64,000 bases of DNA from Yinghuangia soli (lineage in GTDB: Bacteria > Actinomycetota > Actinomycetes > Streptomycetales > Streptomycetaceae), in the NCBI RefSeq assembly GCF_021502675.1, contig NZ_JAKFHA010000017.1, positions 13,542-77,541 on the forward strand, given 5' to 3'. Numbering within the stretch: the first letter of the stretch is position 1; each line of letters opens with the position of its first letter. Positions 52-62,413 of this stretch are shown piece after piece. The notes under the pieces are model-generated. The model did not search any database. It saw only the letters and a list, made by a program, of their open reading frames with translations, and was not told the DNA's origin. Both the position numbers and the translations under genes were made by a program.

Positions 52-75
52 CCCCCCCCCCCCCCCCCCCCCCCC
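52..75. repeat. 24-base poly-C homopolymer tract
   Basis: An uninterrupted run of 24 C residues (G on the other strand), preceded by a G-rich stretch. It ends seven bases downstream of the stop codon of the acyl-CoA dehydrogenase gene, so it lies outside the coding sequence. Runs this long are unusual even at this GC content. They are prone to slippage and to sequencing error, so the exact length should not be trusted. Confidence 0.9.
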
Positions 76-46601: not shown

Positions 46602-46971
46602 GGATGTGCCCCGCCCTCCGTGAACCCCCGGCCCGCGCCCCGCACGGGCCCTGAATCGCCATCATCGCCGCAGGAACCGGAGGTGACCAGGCACAAGAGG
46701 CCGAATCACGGATGGCGGGGAGGGTGCGGACAGGGGGCGGGCAGGGGCGGACCGGAGGCTGACCGGGGCACGGCCGGCCGCCCCGGGCGGGACGGACGGG
46801 TTCCGCGCGGCTGTCCACGGGCGGTCCGGCCGTTCGGGCTGCCGGGGTCACTCGTCCGTGGACTTTTCCACTCGCGCGGAGCAGTAGCGGGCCCGGCCGT
46901 GCCCTCTCATCGGCGCGGCTCGTTGCACTGGACGGTACGGGGGCGGACAGTCCTGTCCCGGAGGTATCGAT
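46602..46971. other. 370-bp divergent intergenic region
   Basis: It should hold the promoters of the phosphatase (-) and ABC transporter (+) genes. It contains the inverted repeat GTGGA-CTTT-TCCAC near 46859 and is G-rich on the + strand between 46715 and 46800. TTGCAC at about 46923 could be a -35 for the ABC gene. No coding region is visible. Confidence 0.4.
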
Positions 46972-47790
46972 ATGGCCCTTTCACCCCGGTCGGCTCTTTC
47001 GCCTCGTTCGCCTCGTTCGACGCGGTCGACCCGGTCTGCGGGTTCCGAGGATGCGGTGCCGCACACCCCCGGCACCGGATTCGCCACCGACGAGGACGGC
47101 ACCCGCAATCCCGACAACGACGTGCTGCGCGCCCAGGACGTCACCGTCACGCGCGGACCCGCCACGATCCTGCGCCGCCTCTCGGTGGGCGTGCGGGCCG
47201 ACGAGACGTTCGCGGTCACCGGCCCGCCGGGCGCCGGGAAGTCGGCGCTCGTCGCGGTGCTGTCCGGGGTGCTCGCCCCGGACGCCGGGCAGGTGTGGTT
47301 CAACAGCCGCCCGCTGCACACCCTCGGCGGCCGCGCCCGGGCCGAACTGCGCCGCACGCACTTCGGGATGATGGACGGGCGGGCCCGGCTCATGCCCGAA
47401 CTCACCGTGCTGGAGAACGTCGCGCTGCCGCTGCTACTCGAACCCGCTGCGCGCGACTCGGCGTTCGCCGCGGCCCGGCACTGGATGGGGCGCCTCGACG
47501 TACTCGACCAGGCCGACCGGCGGCCGCACGGGCTCCCGGTCGCGCTGCTGCGCCGCGCCGCGGTGGCCCGGGCCCTGGTGGCCCGGCCGGACGTGGTGTT
47601 CGCCGACGAGCCCGCCCTGGGCCTCGAAGGCGCCGAACTGGACCATCTGATGCGCATCCTGGTCACCGCGTCCCGCTCGCACGGCATCGCGCTCGTGCTG
47701 GCCACCGACGACCCCAAGGTCGCGGTGCACGCCGACCGGCAGCTCGAACTCCGCGACGGACGCCCCGCCCCGGTGCGTGCCGACGCCTGA
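46972..47790 (+). CDS. ABC transporter ATPase, MacB/LolD-like, with degenerate signature
   Basis: A 272-aa ATPase. Residues 4-25 are a Ser/Pro/Arg repeat encoded by a period-9 DNA array. Walker A GPPGAGKS is at 84-91, the Q-loop position has Asp instead of Gln (FGMMDGRARL), and Walker B VVFADEP is at 208-214. The usual LSGGQ is replaced by HGLPVALLRR (186-195), so ATP sandwich formation may be weak. The ATG at 46972 has GGAGG seven bases upstream. It is followed 18 bp later by the FtsX-like permease, with which it would form one exporter or regulatory complex. The role is unknown; peptide, lipid or resistance export are typical for the family. Confidence 0.87.
   Translation: MALSPRSALSPRSPRSTRSTRSAGSEDAVPHTPGTGFATDEDGTRNPDNDVLRAQDVTVTRGPATILRRLSVGVRADETFAVTGPPGAGKSALVAVLSGVLAPDAGQVWFNSRPLHTLGGRARAELRRTHFGMMDGRARLMPELTVLENVALPLLLEPAARDSAFAAARHWMGRLDVLDQADRRPHGLPVALLRRAAVARALVARPDVVFADEPALGLEGAELDHLMRILVTASRSHGIALVLATDDPKVAVHADRQLELRDGRPAPVRADA
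46986..47048 (+). repeat. Period-9-bp degenerate tandem array (ABC ATPase 5' end)
   Basis: Six to seven consecutive 9-bp units of the form nnnnTCGnC (for example TCGTTCGCC, TCGTTCGAC, GCGGTCGAC), encoding the SPR/STR repeats at the start of the ABC ATPase. It belongs with the similar arrays at 51822, 57742, 59299 and 62341. Confidence 0.7.
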
Positions 47791-58504: not shown

Positions 58505-59179
58505 TCAGCCGGCGGTCGGCACCGGCTCTTCGCTGTCGGCGTCGGTGCCGGCGGCCGGGTCGGCGGTGTCGGCCGGGTCCGCGGCGGGCGGGTCCGGCAG
58601 CCGGACCTCCGCGACACCGCCGAGCACCAGGCCCAGGGTCGCGGCGGTGACCTCGGCGCCGTCCGCACCGCACTCGATGCGGCGGACCGCGGAGTCGACC
58701 ATGCCCTGCACGAGCGAGGCGACCAGCATGGGGTCCGGGTGGCCGAGGTCGGCCAGCGCGTTGACCACCAGCTCGACGATGCGGCCGTGCGCGGCGCGGA
58801 TCCGCTCGCGGGCGTTGGCGTCCAGTTCGCCGGTGGAGATCGCCACGACCACGCGGTGCGTGCGGTCCCCGACCAGTTCGAGCTGCCGGTGGACGTACGC
58901 CGCGATCTTCTGGGCGGGGTCGTCCACCGCGGCCATCGCGTCCTCGACCTCGGCGACCCAGGCGGGCAGGTCGACCGCGCAGAGTTCCTCGACGACGGCG
59001 GCGCGCGAACGGAAGTACTCGTAGACGGAGGAACGGGCCAGGCCGGTGCGCTCGGCGAGGGCGGGGAAGGTCAGTGCGGCGAACCCGCCCTCGTCCAGAA
59101 GCGCACGGGCGGCATCGAGCAGCGCGGCATGTTGCATGGCGCGGTGCTCGGCGACGGATGCTGCTCGTATCTTCGGCAC
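58505..59179 (-). CDS. TetR-family transcriptional regulator
   Basis: A 224-aa repressor-type regulator. The N-terminal HTH has ALLDAARALLDEGGFAALTF, then LAERTGLARSSVYEYFRSRAAVV. The C-terminal ligand domain ends in a Pro/Ala/Asp-rich tail (residues 195-224). The GTG at 59179 is preferred over an upstream ATG at 59248 because the conserved domain starts near it and upstream codons look unlike the gene. No Shine-Dalgarno is obvious. It lies antisense to the unclosed M23 frame and next to the period-9 array. Its ligand and targets are unknown. Confidence 0.85.
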   Translation of the reverse strand: MPKIRAASVAEHRAMQHAALLDAARALLDEGGFAALTFPALAERTGLARSSVYEYFRSRAAVVEELCAVDLPAWVAEVEDAMAAVDDPAQKIAAYVHRQLELVGDRTHRVVVAISTGELDANARERIRAAHGRIVELVVNALADLGHPDPMLVASLVQGMVDSAVRRIECGADGAEVTAATLGLVLGGVAEVRLPDPPAADPADTADPAAGTDADSEEPVPTAG

Positions 59180-59298
59180 GGGATCACTGTAGAGCGTCGG
59201 CGCGGCAGGGTTCCAAGGGTGGCCGCATCGCGCATGTTTTGCGGCCAAGCCGACGGATTCCCCCCGAAAGTGTCGGCATCCGAGCGAGCAGGGCCCGA
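59180..59298. other. Short gap between TetR and the period-9 array
   Basis: It should contain the TetR promoter. The bases just upstream of 59179 (CTCTACAGTGATCCC on the minus strand) show no clear Shine-Dalgarno. Nothing else is recognised. Confidence 0.4.
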
Positions 59299-59590
59299 CG
59301 AACCGGTGAAGCCGACGAAGCCGGCGGGCTCGTCGGCGTCGAGGGGGTCGGTGAAGTCCGCGGGCTCGGCCTGGTCGACGAGGTCGGCGGGGTTGGTGGA
59401 GTCGGAGGGCCTGGTGGGGTCCGCGGAGCCGGAGGGCCCGACGGTCACGAAGGAGTCGGCGCGGTCGGCGGACCGGGTGGGGTCCGTCGAGTCGGCGATC
59501 ACCGCAGGGCCGGTCTCGTCGGTAGGCGCTGCGGGGTCGGCCCGGCCGGCGCAGGTGGCGGGGCCACGCGGGCCGGCCGGGCCGTCGGTG
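59299..59590. repeat. Intergenic period-9-bp degenerate tandem array, about 32 units
   Basis: From 59299 the sequence divides cleanly into 9-bp units with consensus close to GGGGTCGGC (for example GGGGTCGGT, GAGGTCGGC, GGAGTCGGC, GCGGTCGGC) without any change of phase for about 290 bp. It stops at the ppdK stop codon (59591). Read on the minus strand it would encode three-residue repeats rich in S/A/D/P (ADS-TDP-TRS style). Copies are diverged, so the array is old or not perfectly slippage-made. It fills nearly the whole TetR-ppdK gap, 411 bp. Confidence 0.85.
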
Positions 59591-62413
59591 TCAGCGTGTG
59601 TCGCCTCCTCCGCGGGCTGCGTCCCCCATGACTGCGGCCCGCCCGGCCTCCAGCCGGGCGACCGGCAGGCGGAAGGGCGAGCAGGAGACGTAGTCCAGGC
59701 CGGTCTCGTGGAAGAACCGGACCGATTCGGGGTCGCCGCCGTGCTCGCCGCACACGCCGAGCCCGAGCCCGGGCCGGGCGGCCCGGCCTTCCTCGGCGGC
59801 CAGCGCGACCAGGCGGCCGACACCGTCGCGGTCCAGCGTCTCGAAGGGCGACACCCCGAAGATGCCGGCCGCGAGGTAGGCGGTGAAGAACGACGCCTCC
59901 ACGTCGTCGCGCGAGAAGCCCCAGGTCGTCTGCGTCAGGTCGTTGGTGCCGAACGAGAAGAACTCGGCGGCCTCGGCGATCTGGCCCGCGGTCAGGGCCG
60001 CACGCGGCAGCTCGATCATCGTGCCGACCGGGAAGGACAGAAGGGCGGCGTCGAGGCCGGTCTCCGCGGCGACCGCGGCGAAGACCTGCTGCGCCTCGTC
60101 GCGGATGATCTCCAGCTCCTGCACGCCGCCGACCAGCGGGACCATGATCTCGGGGTGCGGCATGCCGCCCTCGCGGAGGCGTTCGGCGGCGGCCTCGGCC
60201 ACCGCCCGGATCTGCATCGCGAACAGGCCCGGGATCACCAGGCCGAGGCGGACGCCGCGCAGTCCGAGCATGGGGTTCTGCTCGTGCAGCCGGCGTACCG
60301 CGGCAAGGAGCGTGCGGTCCTCCGCGCGGTCGTCGCCGCGGGCCTCGGCGAGGGCGACCCGGACGGACAGTTCGGTGAGGTCCGGCAGGAACTCGTGCAG
60401 CGGCGGGTCGAGCAGCCGGATGGTGACCGGCAGGCCGTCCATGGCGGCCAGGATCCCGGCGAAGTCGCGGCGCTGCAGCGGGAGGAGGGACTCCAGTGCG
60501 GCGGCGCGGCCGTCGTCACTGTCGGCGAGGACCAACCGCTCGACGTACTTGCGGCGTTCGCCCAGGAACATGTGCTCGGTGCGCAGGAGTCCGATGCCCT
60601 GCGCACCGAACCGCCGGGCCCGGGCGGCGTCTTCGGCGGTGTCGGCGTTGGCGCGGACGAGCAGGCGGCGGGACCGGTCGGCGTGCGCCATCATCCGGTG
60701 CACGGCGCCGACCAGCCCGTCCGGTTCGTCGTCCGCCGCGCTGCGGTGCCCTTCGAAGTAGTCGACGACCGGGGACGGGACGACCGGGGCCTCGCCCAGG
60801 TAGACGTGTCCGCTGGTGCCGTCCACGGAGATCAGGTCGCCTTCGGCGACCTCCACGCCGCCGGGTGCGGTGAAGCGCCGCTGCACCGGGTCGACGGTGA
60901 GCGCCTCGGCCCCGCACACGCAGGTCTTGCCCATGCCGCGGGCGACCACCGCGGCGTGCGAGGTCTTGCCGCCGCGGCTGGTGAGGATGCCCTCGGCGGC
61001 GACCATGCCGGCGAGGTCGTCCGGATTCGTCTCCCGGCGGACCAGGATCACCCGGTCCCCGCGCTCGGCCCAGCGGACCGCGGTCTCCTGGTCGAAGACG
61101 GCGCGGCCGACCGCGGCCCCGGGGGACGCGGCGATGCCCTGGGCGATGCGGCGGACCGGCGCCTCGGCCGCGGCGGACTCCGCAGCTTCGCCGGTGTCGT
61201 CGGCGAAGCGGGGGAACATCAGCTGGGCGAGCTGGGCTCCGGTGACCCGGCGCAGCGCCTCGTCCTCGCCGATGAGCCCCTGGTCGACCAACTGGGCGGC
61301 GATACGGAACGCCGCCTCGGCGGTGCGCTTGCCGACGCGGGTCTGCAGCATCCACAGGGTGCCGCGTTCGATGGTGAACTCGATATCGCAGAGGTCGCGG
61401 TAGTGCGCTTCGAGGGTCGCCATGATGCGCAGGAGGTGGTCGTAGGACGCCTTGTCGAGGCGTTCGAGTTCGGCGAGCGGGACCGTGTTGCGGATGCCCG
61501 CGACGACGTCCTCCCCCTGCGCATTGGCGAGGTAGTCGCCGTACACCCCCTGCTTGCCGGTCGCCGGGTCGCGGGTGAAGGCGACGCCGGTGCCGGAGTC
61601 GGGTCCGAGGTTGCCGAAGACCATCGCGACGATGTTGACCGCGGTGCCCAAGTCGTCCGGGATCCGCTCCTGCCGCCGGTACAACCGCGCCCGGTCGCCG
61701 TGCCAGGACGAGAAGACCGCCCGGACCGCCAGGTCGAGTTGGACGCGCGGATCCTGCGGGAAGTCCTCCCCCGCCTCCTTCGCGACCAGGTCCTTGTAGA
61801 CCGCGACCAGCGTGCGCAGGTCCGCGGTGTCCAGGTCCAGGTCCGACGCCGCCCCCTTGGCGCGCTTCGCCGCCTCCAGGCGCTCCTCGAACAACTCCCC
61901 GTCCACGTGCAGGACGGTCTTGCCGAACATCTGGATGAGCCGCCGGTAGGAGTCCCACGCGAACCGCTCGTCGCCGGCCTGCGCGGCCAGCCCGGCCACG
62001 GAGGCGTCGGACAGCCCGATGTTGAGGACGGTGTCCATCATCCCGGGCATGGAGAACGCGGCCCCGGAGCGCACCGACACCAGCAGCGGGTCGTCGGGCT
62101 GCCCCAGCGTGCGGCCCATCTCGCGTTCCAGGTCGGCCAGATGGGCGTCCACTTCGGCCCGCAGGCCGGCGGGCTCCCGGCCGGCCTCGAGGAAGGCGCG
62201 GCAAGCCTCGGTGGTGATGGTGAACCCGGGCGGCACGGGCAGTCCGAGGTTGGTCATCTCGGCAAGGTTCGCGCCCTTGCCGCCGAGCAGGTCCTTGAGG
62301 TCCTTGTTGCCTTCGGCGAAGGCGTAGACGAGCTTGGGAGGGTTCGGGGTGTTCGTGGTTCGCGGAGCGCCGGTGATGCCGGGAGCGCTCGGATTGTTCG
62401 GGGTGTTCGGCAC
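59591..62413 (-). CDS. ppdK: Pyruvate, phosphate dikinase
   Basis: A 940-aa enzyme interconverting pyruvate, ATP and phosphate with PEP, AMP and pyrophosphate. The N-terminal nucleotide-binding part begins LVYAFAEGNKDLKDLLGGKGANLAEM; the swivelling phospho-histidine domain has GGKTSHAAVVARGMGKTCVCG with His486; the C-terminal TIM barrel ends with the CGEHGGDPESV motif. The GTG at 62413 follows GAGGGGG by six bases. Compared with usual PPDK (870-900 aa), about 28 extra residues at the N-terminus (TPNNPSAPGITG-type) are encoded by a period-9 array. The gene stands alone in its direction. Confidence 0.95.
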   Translation of the reverse strand: MPNTPNNPSAPGITGAPRTTNTPNPPKLVYAFAEGNKDLKDLLGGKGANLAEMTNLGLPVPPGFTITTEACRAFLEAGREPAGLRAEVDAHLADLEREMGRTLGQPDDPLLVSVRSGAAFSMPGMMDTVLNIGLSDASVAGLAAQAGDERFAWDSYRRLIQMFGKTVLHVDGELFEERLEAAKRAKGAASDLDLDTADLRTLVAVYKDLVAKEAGEDFPQDPRVQLDLAVRAVFSSWHGDRARLYRRQERIPDDLGTAVNIVAMVFGNLGPDSGTGVAFTRDPATGKQGVYGDYLANAQGEDVVAGIRNTVPLAELERLDKASYDHLLRIMATLEAHYRDLCDIEFTIERGTLWMLQTRVGKRTAEAAFRIAAQLVDQGLIGEDEALRRVTGAQLAQLMFPRFADDTGEAAESAAAEAPVRRIAQGIAASPGAAVGRAVFDQETAVRWAERGDRVILVRRETNPDDLAGMVAAEGILTSRGGKTSHAAVVARGMGKTCVCGAEALTVDPVQRRFTAPGGVEVAEGDLISVDGTSGHVYLGEAPVVPSPVVDYFEGHRSAADDEPDGLVGAVHRMMAHADRSRRLLVRANADTAEDAARARRFGAQGIGLLRTEHMFLGERRKYVERLVLADSDDGRAAALESLLPLQRRDFAGILAAMDGLPVTIRLLDPPLHEFLPDLTELSVRVALAEARGDDRAEDRTLLAAVRRLHEQNPMLGLRGVRLGLVIPGLFAMQIRAVAEAAAERLREGGMPHPEIMVPLVGGVQELEIIRDEAQQVFAAVAAETGLDAALLSFPVGTMIELPRAALTAGQIAEAAEFFSFGTNDLTQTTWGFSRDDVEASFFTAYLAAGIFGVSPFETLDRDGVGRLVALAAEEGRAARPGLGLGVCGEHGGDPESVRFFHETGLDYVSCSPFRLPVARLEAGRAAVMGDAARGGGDTR
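62341..62412 (-). repeat. Period-9-bp degenerate tandem array (ppdK 5' end)
   Basis: Eight 9-bp units (for example GGTTCGGGG, TGTTCGTGG, CGCTCGGAT, TGTTCGGGG, TGTTCGGCA) encode the TPN-NPS-APG-ITG-APR-TTN-TPN pattern of the extra PpdK N-terminus. The array begins exactly at the start codon side and ends where the conserved domain starts. Confidence 0.8.

Follow-up and report, generated by a model that had tools for sequence, protein, structure and literature searches.

In the 64,000-nucleotide stretch of Yinghuangia soli DNA analysed here (the window), the gap between ppdK and a gene for a TetR-family regulator holds 32 consecutive in-phase 9-mers with zero indels (59299-59586). We consider it probable that this array is a minisatellite that expanded in situ and has since decayed, and that it has no function of its own beyond a hairpin and the spacing it provides. 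In such a course of events one 9-bp word of the GCCGACCCC/GGGGTCGGC type would have undergone a minisatellite-type expansion in place, immediately downstream of the ppdK stop codon and most likely later than the split from the two sequenced congeners. Growth may have proceeded by replication slippage or unequal exchange, and the copies would then have diverged through point substitution to about 30% off the consensus. The ppdK-proximal units would now form a long hairpin, which is predicted and which probably stops ppdK transcription, and the remaining units may act as a spacer before the intact, leaderless TetR promoter. A sequence-specific function of the 9-mers would not be required.

The consensus of the unit is SGRSYCGGY on the plus strand and RCCGRCYCC on the transcript strand. 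Identity at lag 9 across 59299-59590 is 0.54, as against 0.35 +/- 0.026 in 2000 dinucleotide shuffles, and the comparison with shuffled sequence, named in a preliminary description of this DNA as able to refute the array, thus came out far in its favour. The value tops that of every 290-bp stretch in the 64-kb window, the runner-up reaching 0.47. Over lags 9-45 the full array has a mean of 0.548 (z = 16.6, dinucleotide shuffles), and the 27-unit core alone (59299-59541) gives z = 16.4. The phase breaks at 59290/59299 on one flank; on the opposite flank it holds as far as the ppdK stop, at about 59590. The roughly 32 units that were described as keeping phase over some 290 bp are therefore borne out, but the array is degenerate and not "pure", as 73 of the 243 core bases (about 30%) are off the consensus. 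The distance between units is flat, at 0.40-0.49 for separations of 1 to 20 units, and identity is still about 0.5 at lags up to 252. Since the distance does not rise with separation, the units look like independent diverged copies from one ancestor. Recent unit-by-unit slippage is not visible in this flat profile, which counts against the minisatellite reading, but an old decayed array would give the same. An Rfam search of the window returned no match, and the G-run pattern of a three-tetrad G-quadruplex is absent from the array.

Read along the minus strand, the order of elements is ppdK stop, hairpin, 27-unit core, 119 bp of ordinary sequence, TetR promoter and TetR GTG. The pyruvate phosphate dikinase gene ppdK (59591-62413, minus strand, start approximate) matches TIGR01828 with 1249 bits, and its stop codon at 59591-59593 bounds the array. 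Of the 411-bp gap between this stop and the TetR GTG, the array takes up about 71%; the earlier statement that it fills nearly the whole gap was thus too generous, and its end at the ppdK stop stands. The five units at the ppdK-proximal end (59542-59590) are weaker than those of the core, keep the same phase and are mostly folded into a hairpin; their phase score of 19.5 is matched by 0.26% of GC-rich intergenic 45-mers. This hairpin (59538-59584, minus strand), which the preliminary description had missed, sits a few nucleotides past the ppdK stop and is built of these last five units, still in phase. It has a perfect 13-bp outer stem of G+C and an inner GTGGC/GCCAC stem, and its predicted energy of about -43.6 kcal/mol ranks among the strongest 4% of 1502 post-stop regions. 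The predicted fold is likely a U-less terminator and probably ends ppdK transcription. The array beyond the hairpin would be a spacer ahead of the intact TetR promoter, and the spacer role that had been proposed stands as a reading. The promoter, read from the sequence as TTGGAA-N19-TACAGT (59186-59216, minus strand), lies six bases ahead of the GTG start at 59179, for which reason the TetR mRNA is probably leaderless. An element of the TACAGT type before the TetR gene recurs across the family, and the array therefore leaves the TetR promoter undisturbed. The TetR gene itself (58505-59179, minus strand) has matches in 121 of the 121 family genomes searched.

The comparison with close relatives speaks to the origin of the array. 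In two congeners with the same gene order the ppdK-TetR gap measures 120 and 93 bp, and the array is missing from both, hence it is not constant among relatives. Subtracting it shrinks the 411-bp gap to 119 bp (59180-59298), so the length of the remainder is unchanged relative to the 120 bp of the whole gap in congener G001. Among 87 conserved gaps compared with this congener, the ppdK-TetR gap shows the largest gain; lengthened gaps are generally not period-9 arrays. The ppdK stop of G001 is embedded in homologous sequence, indicating that the stop is ancestral and that the array entered behind it. In these comparisons the array is lineage-specific, and the coincidence of the boundaries with the phase of the array supports expansion in place. 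We class it as a minisatellite since its units are head-to-tail copies above chance (z = 16.4-16.6), since its presence differs among relatives, and since it lies in a noncoding position between the ppdK stop and the TetR start, with no frame that has its own start and stop. Among the family members whose upstream region was read, ppdK adjoins TetR only in this genus; in most of them TetR is preceded by the end of a different, sigma-factor-like gene, presumably whiG. The adjacency of ppdK and TetR in this genus is a local rearrangement (58505-59593). In a sister genus (L201-L204), the region upstream of the orthologous TetR gene holds 4, 2 or 0 copies of a different 9-mer, CCGGGAAAT.

The 9-mer of the ppdK-TetR array itself is expanded at other loci in the family. 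Of 298 family genomes, 19 carry an array of at least four copies of GCCGACCCC with no more than one mismatch, as against 2 genomes for the reversed control, and these arrays occupy unrelated, separate loci. Fifteen of the 19 arrays lie within called genes and mostly encode Ala-Asp-Pro (ADP) repeats, with Ala-Gly-Ser (AGS), Gly-Val-Gly (GVG) and Thr-Pro-Pro (TPP) arising from other frames or strands; four lie outside called genes. That the 9-bp unit has multiplied in several reading frames and also outside genes indicates an event at the level of DNA, and such expansions, genic and non-genic, have arisen repeatedly and independently of one another within the family. A clean intergenic array of 10 copies, GGGGTCGGC, separates convergent genes of a different genus in the family (L291/L312), and one of 4 copies (L309) starts 8 nt after a stop codon, with the placement and strand of the ppdK-TetR array. 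These intergenic arrays of other genera share the unit but are shorter, clean and probably younger, and their loci are unrelated. Likewise, the Ala-Asp-Pro segments of Streptomycetaceae proteins share the 9-mer and its phase relative to the codon-like frame, but they stand in open genes and are mostly near-perfect, whereas the array is intergenic and has no usable frame. In prokaryotes at large, Streptomyces coelicolor included, units of short satellites and minisatellites are predominantly multiples of three, and many are amino-acid repeats in genes (PMC6749651). The array is likewise made of tandem copies of a short unit whose length is a multiple of three; in contrast to those minisatellites it is noncoding, more degenerate and free of indels across 32 units. 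The ppdK-TetR array is then an older, decayed case of GCCGACCCC expansion; it has the appearance of a common type of repeat growth that occurs throughout the family and does not look like a new regulatory system. Its wider significance is that in Streptomycetaceae one 9-mer suited to the codon usage of high-GC genomes expands time after time, giving protein tripeptide repeats inside genes and spacer DNA outside them, of which the array is a decayed example.

A different history, to which we give a clearly smaller though still appreciable chance, is that the array derives from translated tripeptide-repeat DNA, (A/T)-(D/G)-(P/S) on the minus strand, that was inserted or was formerly a gene tail or a small ORF; codon-like third bases and the lack of frame-breaking indels would follow from this. 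The composition of the array is indeed codon-like, since unit positions 1/4/7 are 95% G/C and up to 100% in parts. Core variants at positions 1, 4 and 7 are G<->C exchanges in 16 of 20 cases, whereas variants of G at positions 2, 3 and 8 go to A/T in 24 of 27 (p = 2.4e-6, the phase class having been picked after the data were seen). Neutral decay alone does not predict this bias, and zero indels in 32 units with 73 core substitutions is unusual for freely decaying DNA; both observations count against the minisatellite reading. At 0.26 per codon, which corresponds to the 25th percentile of genes, the minus-strand frame scores as a weak gene would, and the same unit is used in the same frame in genes of other genomes, one of which (L294) has a similarly degenerate stretch. 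Long in-phase arrays elsewhere are, moreover, nearly all genic, with period lengths that are multiples of three.

Against a coding origin, the minus frame is shifted by +1 relative to ppdK and is not that of TetR, it shows no start signal, and it stays open until 59071, inside TetR; the plus frame runs through the antisense of ppdK. No open frame with a start and a stop encloses the array in any of the frames. The homology of the ppdK stop in G001 indicates that ppdK had no tail, and a DNA search of the genome for an array-like donor stretch gave only weak matches, at most about 75% over 60 bp. A simpler ranking, which asks whether the three positions with least A/T share a codon phase, is worth no more than a chance of 3/84. 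Pfam found nothing in three translations of the array (the codon-like minus frame and two plus frames), and a protein search with the minus-frame translation gave low-complexity matches only. A present-day gene over the array is disfavoured for want of a usable frame. A programmed +1 frameshift at the ppdK stop, where the array frame is +1 and the stop context UGA-C, was rejected as well, given that the P-site codon CGC permits no re-pairing and that no stop occurs before TetR. The relic of coding repeats that the preliminary description had listed thus draws indirect support from the Ala-Asp-Pro use of the 9-mer in genes of relatives and from the codon-like GC pattern, and is weakened by the missing gene in every frame here and by the congeners, which do not have the sequence. 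The G/C bias at every third base resembles that of codon third positions and lies in a frame without a plausible gene. The relevance to annotation is modest: in GC-frame plots, arrays of this sort can receive coding-like scores.

It is improbable that the array serves as a Rho-utilisation region, in which the 3' RNA of ppdK, rich in regularly spaced C and poor in G, would recruit Rho and insulate TetR. The best 78 nt of the transcript strand have a C/G ratio of 2.87, reached by 2.7% of 812 3' regions, and the sense strand of arrays in co-directional gaps tends to be C-rich (10 arrays strongly skewed this way, 1 the other way), but this lean is weak (p = 0.04) and C-rich 3' regions are plentiful in a genome above 70% GC. 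A strong hairpin already stands between the ppdK stop and the core, and the congeners manage without the array.

Still less credence is due to an operator of head-to-tail 9-bp direct repeats for an oligomerising protein, whether BldC or another nucleoid or regulator protein. BldC does bind head-to-tail direct repeats of 9 bp, and its operators at whiI and smeA-ssfA resemble the array in having 9-bp direct repeats in a single orientation (PMC5859096); the array, too, consists of 9-bp direct repeats that all point one way, and its neighbour is a regulator gene. The BldC operators, however, consist of few repeats of the unit AATTXXXX(C) and require its AT-rich core, since a swap of AATT to GGCC abolished binding (PMC5859096), and no unit of the array contains AATT. 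Elsewhere in this genome the array unit shows little enrichment (16 matches, the control giving 8), the congeners have not conserved the array, and gap arrays have no clear common unit, period 6 giving a comparable similarity z. A candidate motif common to gap arrays was discarded as word bias for the same comparable order signal at period 6. It is just as doubtful that the 27-unit core would be a GC-rich counterpart of the BldC sites, an operator for head-to-tail protein assembly that insulates TetR from ppdK transcription and in which the 9-bp phase and the S/R/Y pattern form a recognition code. The regulatory or nucleoid-binding role raised earlier is therefore not upheld, there being no AT-rich motif, no dispersed family of the unit and no conservation. 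The counts of 16 against 8 and the DNA matches of only about 75% likewise speak against a REP-like dispersed repeat, and a CRISPR was correctly dismissed at the outset, the units being contiguous 9-mers without spacers.

Within this genome, period-9 arrays are a feature of certain gaps. The genome-wide counts rest on samples, which covered 1.79 Mb. Strong period-9 arrays were found in 21 of 685 gaps of at least 100 bp; periods 6 and 12 gave 8, and periods that are not multiples of three gave 0-5, which makes period 9 the commonest short array in the gaps (other periods 0-8). Streptomyces loci show the same lean more weakly, and a stricter repeat finder gave a milder period-9 excess, with periods 9 to 14 all common. 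Intergenic autocorrelation overall has no special peak at lag 9, so period 9 belongs to some arrays and not to every gap. The ppdK-TetR array is one of three long noncoding period-9 arrays in the 1.79 Mb. Part of the period-9 excess in gaps is coding termini missed by the simple gene caller, an instance being the array at 46950-47055 of the window. Among the proteins of this genome and of G001, tripeptide repeats are a frequent feature (ADPADPADP, AGHAGHAGH and AEAVEAVEA, for example).

A few minor observations concern other repeats. This array at 46950-47055 encodes an N-terminal SPR/STR tripeptide repeat, and the gene to which it belongs has a GGAGG ribosome site in front; by eye, the array appears one 9-mer longer here than in the orthologous gene of G001. 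The N-terminus of ppdK (62330-62413) is 9-bp periodic too, NTPNNPSAPGITGAPRTTNTPNPP, and period-9 DNA is thus present at both ends of this gene. A run of 24 C at window positions 52-75 is either a phase-variable tract or an assembly artefact, and the same applies to other long G or C runs in gaps, at G000:C9:104267-104743 in this genome and at G001:C113:118536-118828 in the congener.
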